64,000 nt of DNA from Clavibacter capsici. GTDB lineage: Bacteria > Actinomycetota > Actinomycetes > Actinomycetales > Microbacteriaceae. Position 1 is the first letter of the stretch; each line of letters starts with the position of its first letter. The stretch is taken from positions 1,674,001 through 1,738,000 of the forward strand of contig NZ_CP012573.1 in the NCBI RefSeq assembly GCF_001280205.1. The letters run 5' to 3'. Position numbers and translations under genes: made by a program. Below the pieces are notes generated by a model. The model was not told the origin of the DNA. It did no database searches and was given only the letters and a program-made list of their open reading frames with translations. This document shows, one piece after another, positions 5,824-16,140 of the stretch.

Positions 5824-7332
5824 CTACGCGCGTGAAAACCCGGCAGCCAGGGCCAGGAGCGTGCGCACCGCGACGCCGGTCGGGCCCTTCCCGGTGAAGC
5901 CGTGCCCGCCCGCCTTGTTGTGCGACGGGCCGGCGATGTCGATGTGCGCCCACGGGATGCGCGGGGCGTCCTCGGCGTCGCTCGTCCGGCCGACGAACTC
6001 CTTGAGGAACACGCCGGCGACGAGCATGCCCCCCGCGGGGTTGCCCGGCTTGACGTTCGCGATGTCGGCGACGTCCGAGTTGAGCAGCGCGCGCATCTCC
6101 TCGGGCAGCGGCATGCCCCACATGCTCTCGCCCTGCTCGCGGGCCGCGTCGAGGAGGCGCGCCACGAGCGCGTCCTCGCCCATGACCGCGGAGTACCGCT
6201 CTCCGAGCGCGACGACCTGGGCTCCCGTGAGCGTCGCGATGTCGACGATGGCGTCGGGGTGCTCCTCGCTCGCGGCGACGATGCCGTCGGCCATGACCAG
6301 GCGGCCCTCGGCGTCGGTGTTGAGCACCTCCACCGTCGTGCCGCCGCGCATGCGCAGGACGTCGTCGGGGCGGATGGCGGAGCCGGACGGCATGTTCTCG
6401 GCGATGCAGAGCCACGCCGTCAGCCGCACGGGCAGCTGCAGGCGCGCGGCCGCGACGACGACCTCGAGGATCGTGGCGGCGCCGGTCATGTCGTACTTCA
6501 TGCCGATCATGGGGACGGCGGGCTTCAGGGAGATGCCGCCGGTGTCGTAGGTGATGCCCTTGCCGACGAGCGCGAGGTGGCGCGTGGCGCCGGCGGGGGA
6601 GTACGCGACCTTCACGAGGCGGGGCGGGCGGGTGGATCCCTGGCCGACGCCCAGGATGCCGCCGAAGCCGTCGGCCGCGAGCGCCTCCTCGTCCCACACG
6701 CGGACGTCGATCGGCAGCCCCGACGCGCGCGCCTCGACGGCGTCGACGAAGGTCGCGGGGTAGAGGTCGAGGGGCGGGGTGTTGACGAGGTCCTTGGTGC
6801 CGGCCACGGCGTCGGCGACGGCGACGGCGCGCGCCACGGCCTCGTCCGCGTCCTCCGCGGTCCACGAGGTGCCCTGCGCCGCCACGACGATCGCGGAGGC
6901 GCGCGGCTTCTGGCCGGCGAGGGAGTCGTGGCGGTAGGAGTCGAAGGCGTAGACGCCGAGCGCCGCCCCCTCGAGCACCGCGGTGAGCTCCTCGAGCGAC
7001 GTGACGGGGACCGCGACCGCGACCCGCTCCACGCCGCGCAGCTGGCGGGTGGCGGAGCCGACGGCGTAGCGGAGCGCGACCGCGTCGAGCGGGGCGGACC
7101 CGACGCCGACGAGCGCGATCGCGCGGGCCGACGTGCCGGTGGCCGCCACGCGGACGACCTCGTCGCGCGCGCCCGTGACGCCGAGCGCCGGCAGGCCCGC
7201 CTCGTCGAGCTCCAGCCCGTCCGGCAGGTGCAGCCGGACGCCCTCCTTCTCGCTGGAGACGGCGACGACGAGGACGTCGGCCTCGATGTCGACGGCGCGG
7301 TCGGGGGACACGGAGAGGAGGGGAGTGGTCAT
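5824..7332 (-). CDS. pepA: Leucyl aminopeptidase (M17 family)
   Basis: This is a cytosolic metallopeptidase that removes N-terminal residues from peptides and usually works as a hexamer with two metal ions. The 502-residue protein has the N-terminal macro-like domain and the C-terminal catalytic domain with LVGKGITYDTGGISLK, KYDMTGAA and the M17 signature NTDAEGRL, in which Asp and Glu bind metal. Length matches the family. The ATG at 7332 (MTTPLLSVSP) is chosen because a TAGGCT box lies 8 nt upstream; an in-frame extension further upstream would be Arg/Pro-rich and unlike the family. It is divergent from the PAC2-family gene, sharing a 161-bp intergenic region. Confidence 0.92.
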   Translation of the reverse strand: MTTPLLSVSPDRAVDIEADVLVVAVSSEKEGVRLHLPDGLELDEAGLPALGVTGARDEVVRVAATGTSARAIALVGVGSAPLDAVALRYAVGSATRQLRGVERVAVAVPVTSLEELTAVLEGAALGVYAFDSYRHDSLAGQKPRASAIVVAAQGTSWTAEDADEAVARAVAVADAVAGTKDLVNTPPLDLYPATFVDAVEARASGLPIDVRVWDEEALAADGFGGILGVGQGSTRPPRLVKVAYSPAGATRHLALVGKGITYDTGGISLKPAVPMIGMKYDMTGAATILEVVVAAARLQLPVRLTAWLCIAENMPSGSAIRPDDVLRMRGGTTVEVLNTDAEGRLVMADGIVAASEEHPDAIVDIATLTGAQVVALGERYSAVMGEDALVARLLDAAREQGESMWGMPLPEEMRALLNSDVADIANVKPGNPAGGMLVAGVFLKEFVGRTSDAEDAPRIPWAHIDIAGPSHNKAGGHGFTGKGPTGVAVRTLLALAAGFSRA

Positions 7333-7340
7333 GGGCGACG

Positions 7341-7346
7341 AGCCTA
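7341..7346 (-). promoter_or_regulatory. -10 box of pepA
   Basis: The minus strand reads TAGGCT, ending 8 nt before the pepA ATG, which places the expected transcription start at or very near the start codon. There is no Shine-Dalgarno sequence. Confidence 0.45.
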
Positions 7347-7481
7347 TCGACGCGGGACGACAGGGGGCCGCGTCCGCGCCGAGGCGGAGCCCGGGCCGCC
7401 GCGCGGGAAGGCGGGCGCGCGTGTTCGCTCTCGGCGGCACGGACCGGCCGCCCTCCGCGAGGGGCCGTCGGAGGCGCGGCC

Positions 7482-7487
7482 TAGAGT
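7482..7487 (+). promoter_or_regulatory. -10 box of PAC2-family gene (leaderless)
   Basis: TAGAGT lies 6 nt before the ATG at 7494, so the expected transcript begins at the start codon. No ribosome-binding site is seen between them. Confidence 0.55.
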
Positions 7488-7493
7488 GGATCC

Positions 7494-8414
7494 ATGGCTG
7501 ACGCGGACGGACTGTACGAGATCGACACCGACATCGGCGAGGTCCCCACCGGCCTGCCCCTGGTCGCCGGGCTCACCGGGTTCTCGGACGCCGGATCCGG
7601 CGTCTCGCAGGTCAGCGAGTACCTGCTGAGCACGCTGAGCCACCGCGACGTCCTCCGCTTCGACACCGACACGCTGCTCGACTACCGCGCCCGCCGTCCC
7701 ACCATCTACTTCGACCAGGACCACCTCGCGGACTACCGTCCCGCGCGCCTCGCCCTCTACCTCGCCCACGACGAGATCGGCCAGCCGTTCCTCCTCCTCA
7801 CGGGCTTCGAGCCGGACTTCCGGTGGGAGGCCTTCACCGCCGCGGTCATCGGCATCGTCGAGCGCTACCGCATCTCGACGACGACGTGGGTGCACAGCAT
7901 CCCCATGCCCGTGCCGCACACGCGCGACATCAACGTCACGGTGAGCGGGAACCGCACGGAGCTCATCGACGCGCTGAGCGTGTGGAAGCCGCACACGCAG
8001 GTCCCCGCGAACGCGCTCCACCTGGTGGAGCACCGCCTGCACGACGCCGGGCACCCCGTGGCCGGGTTCGTCCTGCTGGTGCCGCACTACCTGGCAGACA
8101 CGGAGTTCCCGCTCGCCGCGGTCGCGGCGCTCGAGAGCATCAGCGCCGCCACGGGGCTGATCTTCCCCACCGACCGCCTCCGCGAGGAGGGTCGCGACTT
8201 CGTCGGGCGCATCGACGAGCAGGTCGCCGGCAACCAGGAGCTGGCGCGTCTCGTCACCACGCTCGAGGAGCGCTACGACAGCTACATGGAGGACACGCCG
8301 CTCAAGTCGCCGCTGACCGACGAGGACGGTGCCCTGCCGACGGCCGACGAGATCGCCGCCGAGCTGGAGAAGTTCCTCGCACGTCGTCGCCCCGGCGACG
8401 GCGACGCGGCCTGA
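7494..8414 (+). CDS. PAC2 family protein (proteasome-assembly-chaperone-like)
   Basis: The 306-residue protein matches the actinobacterial PAC2 family: an N-terminal GLTGFSDAGSG motif, then an alternating beta/alpha core (FLLLTGFEPDFRWEAF, VHSIPMPVPHTR, GFVLLVPHYLADTEFP) and a long acidic C-terminal helix (EIAAELEKFL). The name comes from eukaryotic proteasome assembly chaperones. In actinobacteria the family occurs with or without a proteasome, and its role is not established. It has no signal peptide or membrane helix, so it is likely cytosolic. It reads away from pepA from a leaderless promoter. Confidence 0.85.
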   Translation: MADADGLYEIDTDIGEVPTGLPLVAGLTGFSDAGSGVSQVSEYLLSTLSHRDVLRFDTDTLLDYRARRPTIYFDQDHLADYRPARLALYLAHDEIGQPFLLLTGFEPDFRWEAFTAAVIGIVERYRISTTTWVHSIPMPVPHTRDINVTVSGNRTELIDALSVWKPHTQVPANALHLVEHRLHDAGHPVAGFVLLVPHYLADTEFPLAAVAALESISAATGLIFPTDRLREEGRDFVGRIDEQVAGNQELARLVTTLEERYDSYMEDTPLKSPLTDEDGALPTADEIAAELEKFLARRRPGDGDAA

Positions 8415-9809: not shown

Positions 9810-10041
9810 CGTCGGCCCGCCGGTGGGCGGCGATGGCTCGTCGGCGCGCCCATCCGTGCAATAATCAGATACGGACCCGTTCATGTCCCGCATCTCGCAC
9901 CGCCCCGGTGGTGCACGATCCGCGGACTTGACATGGGTCCTAGCAATGTCCGAAAACAACCCCGACCCACCTCCGGCAGGTCACCCCGCAGCAGCACCGC
10001 GGAGCGCACGACCGGTCGTCGTGGGGACGAAAGGTGTTCGC

Positions 10042-11517
<1,476 letters not shown>

Positions 11518-11520
11518 GCC

Positions 11521-12801
11521 GTGCCCCTGCGCCTCGCCGTCGCCGCGGGACGGGCCGCCCGCTGGGCCGCCCGTCTCCGCGGCGGCGGTTCCGCCGTGCC
11601 CGGCGTCGTCGCCCTCCGCCTCGAGCCCCGCTTCCTCGAGCGGACGATCGCCGACCTGCCGCACGGCGTGGTGGCCGTCACCGGCTCCAACGGCAAGTCG
11701 ACGACCACCCACATGCTCACCGCGGTCCTCCGCGCCCACGGGCTCCGCGTGTTCACCAACCCCTCCGGCGGGAACCTGCCGCAGGGCATCGCGTCCGCCG
11801 TGCTCGCCGACGCGGACGCGTCCGGTCGGCTCGACGCGGACGTCGCCGTGCTCGAGGTCGACGAGGCCTACGGCGTCGCGCTCTCCGCGCTCCTGACGCC
11901 GCGCACCGTGCTGCTGCTCAACATCCAGATCGACCAGCTCAACCGCTTCCACGAGCCGGACCGGGTCGTCGGGATGCTCGAGCGGATCGCCGCCACCGCG
12001 ACCGAGGCGGTCGTCGCCAACCGCGACGACGCGCACGTGAACGCCATCGCCGCGCAGACCGCGCAGGCCGGTCGCGCCGCCGTCGACTGGTTCGGCGTCT
12101 CCGAGGGCCTGCTCGGCGACAGCAAGCACGGGCTCGCGTCCGCGCCCCGGTTCGGGTCGGAGGCGCCCGACCTCGTGCAGGTCCCCGCCGACGTCGAGGC
12201 CGTGGCGCTCACCGGGCGGGACGCCGTGTTCCGGCTCGCCTCCGGCGACGTGTCCGCGAGCCTGCCGTCACGCGGACTGCACTACGCGGTCGACGCGGCC
12301 GGCGCGCTCGCCACCGCGCGCCGCGTGCTCGGCGACCGGTTCGACCCGGCACTCGGCGCCCAGGGGCTCGGCTCCGTCGCCGCCGTGTACGGGCGCGGCG
12401 AGATGCTGCGCTCGGGCGACGAGGACATCGAGATCATCATGATGAAGAACCCGGCGAGCCTGCAGATGAACCTGGACGCGCTGGGCGACCCGCCCGAGCA
12501 GGTCCTGCTCGCCGTCGACGACGGGACCCCGGACCCGTCGTGGATCTACGACACCGACCTGACCACCCTCACCCACGCTGACGTCGTCTCCGGCACCAAG
12601 GGCTACCAGCTCGCCGTGCGCTTCGGATACGAGGGGCTCGAGGTCGGCCGGGTCGAGCCCGACCTGCGCCGCGCCGTGCAGGCGTTCCTCGCGATGGAGA
12701 AGCCGTCCCGCGGGGTCAAGACCATGATCGTCAACTACGAGCAGATGATGGCGATCCGCCGCATCCTCGGCTACACGGACCTCGAGGGAGGAGCCGCGTG
12801 A
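11521..12801 (+). CDS. murT: MurT-like Mur ligase, lacking the zinc-ribbon cysteines
   Basis: MurT normally uses ATP to activate the alpha-carboxyl of D-Glu in lipid II and, with GatD, converts it to D-isoglutamine. This 426-residue protein has the Mur-ligase P-loop VTGSNGKSTTT (55-62), the NIQIDQLNRF and FHEPDR central-domain motifs, MMKNPASLQMNL, and the C-terminal DUF1727 segment with the conserved SWIYDTD (Asp344) that completes the active site. It has no cysteine anywhere. Known MurT proteins carry a Cys4 zinc ribbon in the central domain, which would fall around residues 195-235. It starts with GTG 3 nt after sigA, with a poor ribosome site, which suggests coupling. It overlaps the gatD-like gene by 4 bp. 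Confidence 0.86.
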   Translation: MPLRLAVAAGRAARWAARLRGGGSAVPGVVALRLEPRFLERTIADLPHGVVAVTGSNGKSTTTHMLTAVLRAHGLRVFTNPSGGNLPQGIASAVLADADASGRLDADVAVLEVDEAYGVALSALLTPRTVLLLNIQIDQLNRFHEPDRVVGMLERIAATATEAVVANRDDAHVNAIAAQTAQAGRAAVDWFGVSEGLLGDSKHGLASAPRFGSEAPDLVQVPADVEAVALTGRDAVFRLASGDVSASLPSRGLHYAVDAAGALATARRVLGDRFDPALGAQGLGSVAAVYGRGEMLRSGDEDIEIIMMKNPASLQMNLDALGDPPEQVLLAVDDGTPDPSWIYDTDLTTLTHADVVSGTKGYQLAVRFGYEGLEVGRVEPDLRRAVQAFLAMEKPSRGVKTMIVNYEQMMAIRRILGYTDLEGGAA

Positions 12802-13532
12802 GCGACGCCCTGCGCATCCTGCACCTCTACCCCGAGGAGCTCGGCATCAACGGCGACCGCGGCAACGTGACCGTGCTCGTCGAGCGGGCCCGCATCCGCG
12901 GCATCCGCACGGACGTCGTCCGCCATGCGCCGGGCGGCGGAGACCCGGGCGAGGCCGACCTGGTCGTCGTCGGATCCGGTCCGCTCACCGCCCAACGCGC
13001 CGTGCTGCCCGACCTCGTCTCGCACGCTCGCCACCTGGTCGCGCTCCGGGAGTCGGGCGTCCCGCTGCTCGCGGTGGGCGGCGGGCTCCAGCTGATGGGG
13101 GAGTCCGTGCGGCTCGTCGACGGCGGCGAGCTCGTGGGCGCGGGCGTCCTGCCCGTGCGCACCACGCTCACCGCCGAGCGGCGCGTGGGCGACCTCGTGC
13201 TCGACACCCCCGAGGGCGAGCTCGTGGGCTACGAGAACCACGGATCCACCCTCGACATCGGCGAGGCCCTGCCCCTCGGCACCGTGCGCGCCGGCTTCGG
13301 CAACGGCGGCCAGGGCGGCGGGGAGGGCGTGCGCGTCGGCGCCTCGATCGGCACGCACCTCGGCGGTCCCGTCCTCGCCCTCAACCCGCGGCTCGCCGAC
13401 GAGCTGCTCGCCGCGGCCCTCGAGCGTCACGGCCGGGAGCTGCCCGTCGACATCTCGGGCACGCTCGACCGGCTCGACGGCTGGGCTCGCGAGGCCCGGG
13501 CGACCGTCATGGCGCGGCCCGCGCACTACTAG
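12798..13532 (+). CDS. GatD-like protein with catalytic Cys and His both replaced
   Basis: GatD is the class I glutamine amidotransferase that supplies ammonia to MurT. This 244-residue protein aligns by eye over its full length: HLYPEELGINGDRGNV at the N-terminus, GSGPLTAQ, ENHG at 146-149, and GTHLGGPVLALNPRLAD near the end. The nucleophile motif usually reads CGGxQ; here it is VGGGLQ (93-98), with Gly at 94 where Cys is expected. The catalytic His motif usually reads TYLHGP; here it is THLGGP (186-191), with Gly at 189. The protein has no cysteine. It therefore cannot hydrolyse glutamine by the known mechanism. The GTG start overlaps the murT stop (GTGA) behind a GGGAGGAG site, so the two are translationally coupled. 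A strong terminator follows. Confidence 0.85.
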   Translation: MSDALRILHLYPEELGINGDRGNVTVLVERARIRGIRTDVVRHAPGGGDPGEADLVVVGSGPLTAQRAVLPDLVSHARHLVALRESGVPLLAVGGGLQLMGESVRLVDGGELVGAGVLPVRTTLTAERRVGDLVLDTPEGELVGYENHGSTLDIGEALPLGTVRAGFGNGGQGGGEGVRVGASIGTHLGGPVLALNPRLADELLAAALERHGRELPVDISGTLDRLDGWAREARATVMARPAHY

Positions 13533-13621: not shown

Positions 13622-13849
13622 CTAGGAGCGCTCGTCGAGCAGGCGGCTCGACTCGTCGTGCCAGCTCGTGGCGATGGCCGACAGCTTCTCCTGGTACTTC
13701 TTGCCGTGGTGGGCGCAGAAGAGGAGCTCGGAGCTGTTGACCTCGACTCGGATGTAGGCCTGCGCCCCGCAGCTGTCGCAGCGGTCGTTGGCGGTGAGCT
13801 GGTGGTCGTCGAGCTCGTCGACGGGACGCTCGGTCGCGGTCGGTGTCAT
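13622..13849 (-). CDS. Small zinc-ribbon protein, DUF7455 type
   Basis: This 75-residue protein has a CDSC motif (24-27) followed by FCAHH (45-48), together a probable Cys3/His zinc site, and a C-terminal helix ending in SSRLLDERS. Small proteins of this form are conserved in actinobacteria next to topoisomerase or sigma-factor genes and have no assigned function. It is predicted to be cytosolic. The ATG at 13849 follows GGGAGCATCAC. It is divergent from parE (212 bp between them) and converges on the gatD-like gene across a strong terminator. Confidence 0.8.
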   Translation of the reverse strand: MTPTATERPVDELDDHQLTANDRCDSCGAQAYIRVEVNSSELLFCAHHGKKYQEKLSAIATSWHDESSRLLDERS

Positions 13850-14061
13850 GTGATGCTCCCCTCCGGGTCGGGTCGTGTGTCGAGCCGAATGCGTCAAGTA
13901 GACCACGTGCTCCCGGGTGCCGACCCGTGCGCGGCCCTCCGTTTCGCTCTGCGCGTAGGCGCGGACCGGGACGGCGGGTCGGAGGGGGAGGCACCGAGTG
14001 GCGGTTAAGATCGACACCGGCTCGCGTCCGGCGAACGCCGGACGCACATGGAGGACAGCAC

Positions 14062-16140
14062 GTGGCAGCATCCGATTATTCCGCCCGCCATCTCTCCGTC
14101 CTCGAGGGTCTCGAGGCGGTGCGCAAGCGGCCCGGCATGTACATCGGGTCCACCGACTCCCGCGGTCTCATGCACTGCCTGTGGGAGATCATCGACAACA
14201 GCGTGGACGAGGCGCTGGGCGGACACGGCGACCGCATCGACGTGCGCCTGCACCCGGACGGCAGCGTCGAGGTCCGCGACACCGCACGCGGCGTGCCGGT
14301 CGACATCGAGCCGAAGACCGGGCTGTCGGGCGTCGAGGTCGTGTTCACCAAGCTGCACGCCGGAGGCAAGTTCGGGTCGGGGTCGTACGCGTCCTCGGGC
14401 GGCCTGCACGGCGTGGGAGCCTCCGTCGTGAACGCCCTCTCGGAGCGCCTCGACGTCGAGGTCGACCGCGGCGGCAGGACGTACGCCATGTCCTTCCGTC
14501 GCGGCGAGCCCGGCATATTCGACGACCAGGGCGACGCCAGCCCGGACGCCCCCTTCCGCCCGTTCACGTCGGGCAGCGAGCTGCGCGTCGTCGGCAAGGT
14601 GCGCAAGGGCGTCACCGGCACGCGCATCCGCTACTGGGCCGATCGGCAGATCTTCACCCGCGGCGCGTCGTTCCTCACGGAGGAGCTGCTCGGGCGGGCC
14701 CGGCAGACGGCGTTCCTCGTCCCCGGCCTCAGCATCGACATCGAGGACCTCCGCGGCGAGCAGCCGGTGCGCGAGTCGTTCCGCTTCGACGGCGGCATCG
14801 CCGAGTTCGTCGACCACCTCGCGCTCGACGCGCCGCTCACCGACACGTGGCGGCTCGAGGGATCCGGCTCCTTCACGGAGACCGTGCCCGTCCTCACCGA
14901 CGGCGGGGCCATGGTCCCGACCGAGCTCACGCGCGAGTGCGCCGTCGACATCGCCCTCCGCTGGGGCACCGGGTACGACACGCGCTTCAAGTCGTTCGTC
15001 AACATCATCGCGACGCCCAAGGGCGGCACCCACCAGGCCGGGTTCGAGGCGGGGCTCCTCAAGTTCGTGCGCGCGCAGGTCGAGGCCAACGCCCGGAAGC
15101 TCAAGGTCGGCACCGACAAGCTCGAGAAGGACGACGTGCTCGCGGGCCTCACGGCCGTGCTGACGGTGCGCTTCCCGGAGCCGCAGTTCGAGGGCCAGAC
15201 CAAGGAGGTGCTCGGCACGCCGGCCGTCCGCGCCATCGTGTCGCAGGTCGTGCAGAAGGCGATGGCCGAGCGCTTCGAGTCCACCCGGCGCGAGGACAAG
15301 GCGCAGACCGCCGTGCTCCTGGAGAAGGTCGTGGGCGAGATGAAGTCCCGCATCTCGGCGCGCACGCACAAGGAGACGCAGCGCCGCAAGAACGCGCTCG
15401 AGAGCTCGTCGCTGCCGGCCAAGCTGGTGGACTGCCGGTCGAACGACGTCGCGAACAGCGAGCTGTTCATCGTGGAGGGGGACTCCGCGCTCGGCACGGC
15501 GAAGCTCGCGCGCGACAGCGAGTACCAGGCGCTCCTGCCCATCCGCGGGAAGATCCTCAACGTGCAGAAGGCGTCGCTCCCCGACATGCTGTCGAACGCC
15601 GAGTGCGCCTCGATCATCCAGGTGCTGGGCGCCGGATCCGGTCGCACCTTCGACCTCTCCGCCGCCCGCTACGGGAAGATCATCATCATGAGCGACGCCG
15701 ACGTGGACGGCGCCCACATCCGCACGCTCCTGCTCACGCTCCTGTTCCGCTACATGCGGCCCATGATCGACGAGGGCCGGGTCTTCGCCGCCGTGCCGCC
15801 GCTGCACCGCGTCGTGGTCATGAACCCGGGGTCGAAGCCCAATGACGTGATCTACACGTACTCGGAGCGCGAGCTCGCGGCCGTGCTGGCGCAGGCGAAG
15901 CGGCAGGGCAAGCGCTACCAGGATCCCATCCAGCGCTACAAGGGCCTGGGCGAGATGGACGCCGACCAGCTCGCGACCACCACGATGGACCGCCGCAACC
16001 GCACGCTCCGGCGCGTGCGCGTGGAGAAGGCCGAGGCGGCCGCGCGGATGTTCGAGCTGCTCATGGGCAACGACGTCGCGCCGCGCAAGGAGTTCATCAT
16101 CGACGGCGCCGGCACCGTGCGGGACCGCATCGACGTGTGA
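14062..16140 (+). CDS. parE: DNA topoisomerase IV subunit B
   Basis: This is the ATPase subunit of a type IIA topoisomerase, which decatenates and relaxes DNA together with ParC. The 692 residues show the GHKL ATP site (EIIDNSVDEAL, GRGVP-type VEVRDTARGVP, GLHGVGASVVNAL), the transducer lysine loop (KSFVNIIATPKGGTHQAGFE) and the TOPRIM domain (EGDSALGTAK, DADVDGAHIRTLLL), ending with RDRIDV. The GTG at 14062 follows GGAGGA by 6 nt, which decides the start over upstream in-frame codons. It converges with parC across a long hairpin. A separate gyrB is expected elsewhere; the convergent partner supports topoisomerase IV. Confidence 0.9.
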   Translation: MAASDYSARHLSVLEGLEAVRKRPGMYIGSTDSRGLMHCLWEIIDNSVDEALGGHGDRIDVRLHPDGSVEVRDTARGVPVDIEPKTGLSGVEVVFTKLHAGGKFGSGSYASSGGLHGVGASVVNALSERLDVEVDRGGRTYAMSFRRGEPGIFDDQGDASPDAPFRPFTSGSELRVVGKVRKGVTGTRIRYWADRQIFTRGASFLTEELLGRARQTAFLVPGLSIDIEDLRGEQPVRESFRFDGGIAEFVDHLALDAPLTDTWRLEGSGSFTETVPVLTDGGAMVPTELTRECAVDIALRWGTGYDTRFKSFVNIIATPKGGTHQAGFEAGLLKFVRAQVEANARKLKVGTDKLEKDDVLAGLTAVLTVRFPEPQFEGQTKEVLGTPAVRAIVSQVVQKAMAERFESTRREDKAQTAVLLEKVVGEMKSRISARTHKETQRRKNALESSSLPAKLVDCRSNDVANSELFIVEGDSALGTAKLARDSEYQALLPIRGKILNVQKASLPDMLSNAECASIIQVLGAGSGRTFDLSAARYGKIIIMSDADVDGAHIRTLLLTLLFRYMRPMIDEGRVFAAVPPLHRVVVMNPGSKPNDVIYTYSERELAAVLAQAKRQGKRYQDPIQRYKGLGEMDADQLATTTMDRRNRTLRRVRVEKAEAAARMFELLMGNDVAPRKEFIIDGAGTVRDRIDV

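Follow-up and report, generated by a model that had tools for sequence, protein, structure and literature searches.

A MurT–GatD-like pair with a predicted dead glutaminase subunit as a putative bridge-starting ligase of group B peptidoglycan in Microbacteriaceae

A 64,000-nucleotide stretch of DNA from the plant-associated bacterium Clavibacter capsici (contig NZ_CP012573.1, positions 1,674,001 to 1,738,000; the window) carries a murT-like and a gatD-like gene directly behind an rpoD-type sigma factor gene (Table 1). We call proteins of this window type the derived MurT and the derived GatD. Because the pair fails the catalytic tests that define an amidotransferase, we do not class it as one, despite its MurT-GatD sequence, fold and gene order. 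With modest confidence, we suggest that the derived MurT, together with an inactive GatD, is a putative ligase that adds the first bridge residue to the alpha-carboxyl of D-glutamate (D-Glu) in group B peptidoglycan. The derived GatD would be a catalytically dead glutaminase subunit, retained as a structural partner or scaffold, and the derived MurT would still form an acyl phosphate at the D-Glu alpha-carboxyl of a lipid-linked wall precursor. This carboxyl would then be attacked not by ammonia from glutamine but by the amine of the residue that begins the interpeptide bridge; that donor residue would be D-diaminobutyrate (D-DAB) in Clavibacter and another (D-)diamino acid or glycine elsewhere. 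In this way the pair would catalyse the opening step of the 2-to-4 cross-bridge in group B peptidoglycan, and in relatives that lack the pair an ATP-grasp ligase encoded at the same rpoD-linked locus would perform the equivalent step. That two unrelated ligases swap in this one locus, both starting the group B bridge at the D-Glu alpha-carboxyl, is an idea that falls just short of what we would call probable.

The derived GatD is a true GatD homologue, by its GATase_3 sequence and its predicted class I glutaminase fold. It matches Staphylococcus aureus GatD (5n9m), our reference, with a phmmer E-value of 3.6e-27, and scores 63.5 bits against Pfam GATase_3, where the cut-off is 27; its AlphaFold model (mean predicted local distance difference test score, pLDDT, 95.5) has S. 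aureus GatD as best match, with a template modelling score of 0.82-0.87. Its NCBIfam scores of 108.1 and 78.1 bits fall short of the respective cut-offs of 450 and 400, for two models of uncertain scope. In the alignment with 5n9m, S. aureus TICGGYQFLG corresponds to LAVGGGLQLMG and LGTYLHGPIL to IGTHLGGPVL, placing Gly94 at the Cys94 nucleophile and Gly189 at the catalytic His189. Arg128, ENHG, Gly190, Asn196 and the Asn of S. aureus Asn22 (Asn23 here) are unchanged. The initial annotation had read both catalytic residues as glycine in a protein without any cysteine, with the rest of the GatD pattern kept and the gene intact and tightly coupled to murT; translation and alignment bear out the first statement, the retained residues (Arg128, ENHG, Gly190 and Asn196) agree with the second, and a 244-residue open reading frame (ORF) overlapping murT by 4 bases with the third. 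Judged by these residues, it is near certain that glutaminase activity has been lost.

The gene and both glycines are present in 18 of 18 genomes of Clavibacter, and because all of them read likewise the two glycines are no sequencing error. Within the genus, the ratio of nonsynonymous to synonymous substitution rates (dN/dS) is 0.13 for gatD (15 pairs, in a test that omits two of the 18 sequences, each 6 bases shorter) and 0.09 for murT (17 pairs). The derived gatD is under purifying selection, and the 18 genomes together with its ratio rule out a sequencing error or a pseudogene.

What a GatD without its nucleophile might still do can be gauged from S. aureus, in which GatD-MurT amidates the D-Glu alpha-carboxyl (PMC6113224). 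There, GatD C94G and C94S are reported to abolish glutamine-dependent amidation (PMC3266927, PMC6113224), MurT without GatD is inactive, and NH3-driven amidation of lipid II at pH 8.5 persists when MurT is paired with GatD C94G (PMC3266927). Since S. aureus MurT needs GatD, and since the C94G enzyme keeps its use of NH3, a GatD without glutaminase activity can remain useful to MurT. These results also lend themselves to a different explanation, in which the derived GatD does no more than keep the derived MurT in shape, and the latter amidates free D-Glu alpha-carboxyls, using ammonia drawn either from the cytosol or from a second glutaminase. The muropeptides of Clavibacter, for which D-Glu amidation or hydroxylation is listed among the minor modifications (PMC9603630), favour an amidating enzyme and to that extent weigh against a bridge ligase. 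We nevertheless regard ammonia-dependent amidation as unlikely. The S. aureus enzyme, whether wild-type or C94G, is described as making no use of NH3 at pH 7.5 (PMC3266927), most of the relevant MurT proteins have lost the gate Arg and all of them the DNAAD motif (see below), and amidation of the bridge carboxyl would be expected to prevent group B cross-linking at that site. Nor would amidation account for the exchange of the pair for an ATP-grasp ligase whose neighbours include racemase and diaminobutyrate genes.

With the window protein as query, matches were seen in 114 of 150 Microbacteriaceae genomes and in 55 of 149 genomes of the order, the latter sample including 10 Microbacteriaceae, among them the window's own genome. 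We read 159 GatD loci, 120 from Microbacteriaceae and 39 from other families; the order matches left unread were good ones outside the family in G152, G185, G227, G228, G230, G271 and G283, and weak ones in G159, G211 and G253. All 39 GatD proteins read from other families, which are not all of the matches there, keep Cys and His. Within Microbacteriaceae, 92 of the 120 loci are without Cys94 (class A), with Gly (65), Ala (18), Ser (4), Asn (3) or Thr (2) at that position. The proposed check that Cys and His be absent throughout the family came out in part: Cys94 is gone from all 92 class-A proteins, and His189 is still present in 63 of these. Class H, a second and diverged Cys-less class of 11 loci, has His (nine) or Gly (two) at residue 94 and no His189. 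As a caveat on any whole-family loss, GatD lineages with both Cys and His also occur in Microbacteriaceae (17 of the 120 loci, 14 in class B and 3 in class C).

The MurT proteins paired with class-A GatD fall into a single group, with a Shimodaira-Hasegawa-like approximate likelihood ratio test (SH-aLRT) value of 100 in a tree with 29 class-A rows among 62. The grouping recurs in a FastTree of 157 rows, and changes of the Cys state total two; two of the 92 class-A GatD proteins (L114 and L131) have no MurT in tree or alignment. A class-A MurT profile run against named genomes found 446 relatives, the best 80 of which come from Microbacteriaceae (Leifsonia, Herbiconiux, Subtercola, Clavibacter, Mycetocola, Agreia, Okibacterium, Labedella, Pseudoclavibacter, Curtobacterium, Frigoribacterium and others), a few unclassified actinobacterial metagenome-assembled genomes and one record titled Corynebacterium-like bacterium. 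None of the GatD proteins of these best 80 has Cys94 (position 189 is unaligned in two), a figure that, the set being class A by design, speaks for breadth and not for the absence of Cys-containing forms. Cys-less GatD across many other genera of the family rules out a trait confined to Clavibacter. The idea that the Cys-less pair is universal in Microbacteriaceae is weakened, as the derived MurT occurs in only 106 of the 150 genomes (105 by MurT match and G099 by its GatD alone).

The inference first drawn from the window, that a pseudo-amidotransferase has been conserved for a task other than glutaminase activity, fits well with a single Cys-less class, purifying selection and the retained partner and locus. 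Neutral decay of a dispensable amidotransferase would account for the lost Cys, the partly lost His and the absence of the genes from some members of the family, yet it is hardly credible, being contradicted by the selection test on both genes and by the presence of the derived MurT in those 106 genomes, one of only 0.9 Mb.

MurT has kept some of its functional residues and lost others. Lys59, Asn85, Glu112, Asp114, Glu115 and Asp338 (MurT residues are in window numbering) are invariant in 90 of 90 class-A MurT proteins; in Streptococcus pneumoniae MurT, the residues that match Lys59, Asn85 and the acids are described as needed for activity or assigned to Mg and the acceptor carboxylate (PMC6085368). 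S. pneumoniae Arg135, given as a gate residue in the same source (PMC6085368), is matched by Arg in every class B (41) and class C (15) protein and by Val, Ile or Thr in roughly 95% of class-A proteins. The DNAAD motif, for which a contact with the lysine of the stem peptide has been suggested (PMC6113224), carries a three-residue deletion in all 90 class-A proteins. Asn270 and Asn273, the probable adenine contacts of S. pneumoniae MurT (PMC6085368), are replaced in class A by Tyr (91%) and Asp (99%), respectively. The window MurT scores 104 and 80 bits against an NCBIfam cut-off of 800, and its AlphaFold model (pLDDT 87) best matches Streptococcus pyogenes MurT. It is without the Cys4 zinc ribbon because it has no Cys, and that ribbon is reported from only a subset of the bacteria carrying these genes (PMC6113224).

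The adenine site is a difficulty for our proposal. In S. aureus MurT, changing Asn267, the counterpart of one of these two positions, to Tyr abolishes activity (PMC6113224), and the replacement of the adenine-site Asn residues speaks against a simple S. aureus-like use of ATP by the derived MurT, whose nucleotide preference, to judge from these residues, may have changed. Together with the lost glutaminase residues, the same replacements would suit a regulatory pseudoenzyme pair that forms no bond and whose role would be to sense precursors or to bind some other wall protein. However, invariant throughout class A are the P-loop Lys, the Mg-binding acids and the acceptor Asn, which a protein without catalytic function would not have to retain, and we consider a purely regulatory role quite unlikely.

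The genomic position of the pair is nearly constant. In the 150-genome sample, the derived MurT (in these locus counts class A, class H and a small number recovered by profile alone) is encoded no more than 5 kb from rpoD in 102 of the 103 genomes with both on one contig, at a median distance of 5 bases; the sole exception is G053. Canonical MurT was that close to rpoD in 0 of 8 testable genomes. It was the genomes without the derived MurT that led to the ATP-grasp protein, which is within 5 kb of rpoD in 23 of 23 testable genomes. We read 20 rpoD loci, 18 from the 29 genomes without any MurT and 2 from genomes with only a canonical MurT, and their ORFs were named ATPgrasp_ST (PF14397) and alanine racemase (TIGR00492) from Pfam searches on ten and NCBIfam searches on six ORFs. 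The ATP-grasp protein is present in 12 of these loci, two have a racemase and no ATP-grasp protein, and one (G049) has neither; four, including those of both canonical-MurT genomes, are empty, with an rpoD-parE gap of 506-516 bases, and one (L264) ends at a contig edge.

The two ligases avoid each other across the family. A strong match to the ATP-grasp profile (E below 1e-100) was seen in 26 of the 150 genomes, with weak matches in two more; set against the 106 genomes with the derived MurT, both occur in 7 and neither in 25 (p 4e-7). When MurT of any class is counted, and G099 is counted as ATP-grasp only, 319 of 398 family genomes (the 150 included) have MurT, 68 have the ATP-grasp ligase and 11 have both, where 54.5 would be expected (p 2.5e-39). 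At least one of the two is present in 376, and 57 of the 79 genomes without any MurT carry the ATP-grasp ligase. The 248 genomes beyond the first 150, of which 12 had already been met in earlier searches, give MurT in 199, ATP-grasp in 42, both in 5 (33.7 expected, p 3.5e-28) and neither in 12. These Fisher tests ignore relatedness. Of 85 genera, 76 have MurT and 23 have the ATP-grasp ligase, and 13 genera have different ligases in different species, by a reading of the rows in which the MurT class is known for part only. In the order sample, strong ATP-grasp matches are limited to 4 of 149 genomes (G215, G229, G243 and G284), all Microbacteriaceae and exactly those of the sample's ten family genomes that lack a GatD match; there was none in the 139 genomes of other families, where three weak matches lie near 1e-31. 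We suggest a shared function of MurT and the ATP-grasp protein because so few genomes have neither.

If the donor is a D-diamino acid, racemases and diaminobutyrate genes are of interest. A racemase ORF lies in the flank (4 kb or less) of 36 of the 80 named loci of the derived MurT, and in 9 of the 20 rpoD loci described above. Two of those 20 loci also encode an EctB-like aminotransferase (diaminobutyrate transaminase), that of G057 matching TIGR02407 at 603 bits and that of G020 found by similarity to it. In both genomes (L267 in G057, L261 in G020) the rpoD-parE interval holds the ATP-grasp gene and the transaminase gene, plus a racemase in G057, and from its gene content we regard this interval as a candidate bridge-synthesis island. 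No ATP-grasp protein was found near the 80 named loci, within the same flanks. Counting alanine racemase (Alr) matches at a threshold of E 1e-35, we found two or more in 68 of the 125 genomes that carry either ligase vs 4 of the 25 that carry neither (p 0.0004, confounded by ancestry). Class-A subclades differ in the same measure (5 of 31 vs 49 of 58 genomes), a difference noticed after the fact. As a side observation, in L182 (positions 7127-7996, minus strand) and similar loci a second ORF with a partial alanine racemase match stands beside the full racemase gene; it is the C-terminal part where TIGR00492 coordinates are given, and it occurs in most racemase-bearing loci.

Several of these findings weigh against our proposal. 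The flanks of the other 44 of the 80 named loci hold no racemase, no EctB-like transaminase was found within 4 kb of any of the 80, and only 10 of the 26 ATP-grasp genomes have at least two Alr matches. In the window, no racemase gene lies between the derived gatD and the ORF with a DUF7455 domain; the genome has a tandem alanine-racemase pair outside the window, at G000:C1:2663201-2665452, one member of which may make D-DAB. Of the 44 genomes in the 150 without the derived MurT, only 19 carry the ATP-grasp ligase, and 14 of the other 25 have a canonical MurT. These 25 comprise 11 with only a class B MurT, 3 with only class C, 1 with only a partial unclassified MurT and 10 with no MurT at all (two of the ten are less than 90% complete), so that a different enzyme would be required in any of them that has a group B wall. 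In the set of 398, neither MurT nor ATP-grasp is found in 22. Finally, the avoidance itself could arise partly from two alternative occupants of one locus and from shared ancestry.

Genomes with both ligases need separate mention. Five of the 7 in the sample of 150 have class H, and the coexistence counts against a simple exchange. It would be expected for a two-residue bridge, if the derived pair acted on another carboxyl or added a later bridge residue (for instance glycine, or a residue on the carboxyl of the bridge diamino acid) and the ATP-grasp protein or another enzyme started the bridge. The differing racemase numbers of the class-A subclades would be in keeping with such a role. We think it doubtful, as the invariance of Asn85 and the neighbouring acids favours the ancestral acceptor and most genomes with either ligase carry just one. 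A first bridge residue placed on D-Glu is the role we prefer for the derived pair.

Microbacteriaceae at large are generally described as having group B walls. Among the loci read, class A occurs only in this family, and in the order sample strong ATP-grasp matches are confined to it. Group B has been a wall classification since Schleifer and Kandler 1972, as cited in PMC6113628 and PMC4156110. In Clavibacter michiganensis, D-DAB is reported to link the D-Glu of one stem to the D-Ala of another (type B2gamma; PMC9603630), and Rhodoluna lacicola is described as having a group B wall (PMC4156110). Our wall types were taken from text for these two, Clavibacter and Rhodoluna, and that documentation for only two organisms counts against a family-wide claim.

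The remaining features of the window locus are listed in Table 1. Identity to four Clavibacter loci (L211, L225, L250 and L253) is 90-98% for rpoD and 93-94% for murT. The topoisomerase ORF on the right flank is called parE-like from its sequence.

Table 1. Coordinates of the pair, its key residues and its neighbours in the window
Feature	Position	Strand	Remarks	Basis
Derived gatD-like gene	12798..13532	+	244 amino acids, GTG start, no Cys	ORF translation
Gly94 codon, place of the Cys94 nucleophile	13077..13079	+		Alignment with 5n9m; coordinate computed
Gly189 codon, place of the catalytic His189	13362..13364	+		Alignment with 5n9m; coordinate computed
Derived murT-like gene	11521..12801	+	426 amino acids, no Cys, overlaps the derived gatD by 4 bases	
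MurT P-loop G55-S-N-G-K59-S-T	11683..11703	+	Lys in 90/90 class-A MurT	
MurT Ile137, place of S. pneumoniae gate Arg135	11929..11931	+		Alignment
MurT Tyr255 and Asp258, places of S. pneumoniae Asn270 and Asn273 (probable adenine contacts)	12283..12294	+		
MurT D333-D338, DNAAD stretch 3 residues shorter	12517..12534	+	D338 = S. aureus D349, kept	
rpoD-type sigma factor gene	9883..11517	+	Stop 3 bases before the murT start; locus anchor	
ORF with DUF7455 domain	13622..14071	-	Next gene behind the derived gatD	
parE-like topoisomerase ORF	13843..16140	+	Conserved right flank; start codon uncertain	

Some individual loci are also worth recording. The class H loci (L135-L138, L140, L142-L145, L147 and L149) have a very diverged MurT and nearly all lie behind rpoD; a FTHNALEV-like motif replaces the nucleophile motif in nine, and an ATP-grasp gene is also present in five class H genomes of the 150. 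The MurT tree separates class H from class A, yet a single clade, as descent of class H from class A would give, is not rejected (approximately unbiased test, p-AU 0.09). Genome G015, strongly reduced at 0.9 Mb, retains the derived pair behind rpoD (L126) and has no alanine racemase match passing 1e-35. In L081 (genome G047), one TGA falls within a canonical MurT match, possibly marking a decaying copy or a frame artefact.

Among the matches listed in keyword searches of the open-access literature, by titles and abstract starts, we found no named enzyme for the start of the group B 2-to-4 bridge and no link of MurT-GatD to Microbacteriaceae, and no open-access paper naming the ATPgrasp_ST family (PF14397) was found. 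Our findings offer two candidate genes for that step. If our proposal is true, the derived pair would be a clear case of an amidotransferase turned amino-acid ligase through loss of its glutaminase with the subunit retained. A GatD annotation in Microbacteriaceae need not imply amidation of D-Glu.

Among known systems, the MurT-GatD lipid II isoglutaminyl synthase of S. aureus, S. pneumoniae and Mycobacterium tuberculosis consists of the same two proteins, with matching gene order and overall folds, and the derived MurT retains its P-loop, Mg-binding acids, acceptor Asn and D349. Unlike that synthase, the derived GatD has no Cys94 and a variable residue 189, the window MurT has no Cys, the gate Arg and adenine Asn residues are mostly replaced and the DNAAD motif is lost in all of class A, and both proteins score far below the NCBIfam cut-offs. 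A precedent for a D-amino acid ligase acting on the wall precursor and encoded beside a racemase is AslA/Aslfm with RacD in Lactococcus lactis and Enterococcus faecium; AslA, the ATP-grasp D-Asp bridge ligase, shares an operon with racD in L. lactis (PMC4155827). AslA/Aslfm differ in being ATP-grasp enzymes that add D-Asp to the L-Lys of position 3, whereas the derived MurT is a Mur ligase whose proposed acceptor is the D-Glu carboxyl. MurC to MurF, which are not known to need a GatD, and the archaeal pseudomurein ligases share the fold family of the derived MurT, and their chemistry is amino-acid ligation. MurC to MurF differ in working on uridine diphosphate (UDP)-linked precursors and in having an N-terminal UDP-binding domain that is described as absent from MurT (PMC6113224). 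The ATPgrasp_ST protein, finally, belongs to a different Pfam family and occupies the place of the derived pair in the rpoD locus of other members of the family.

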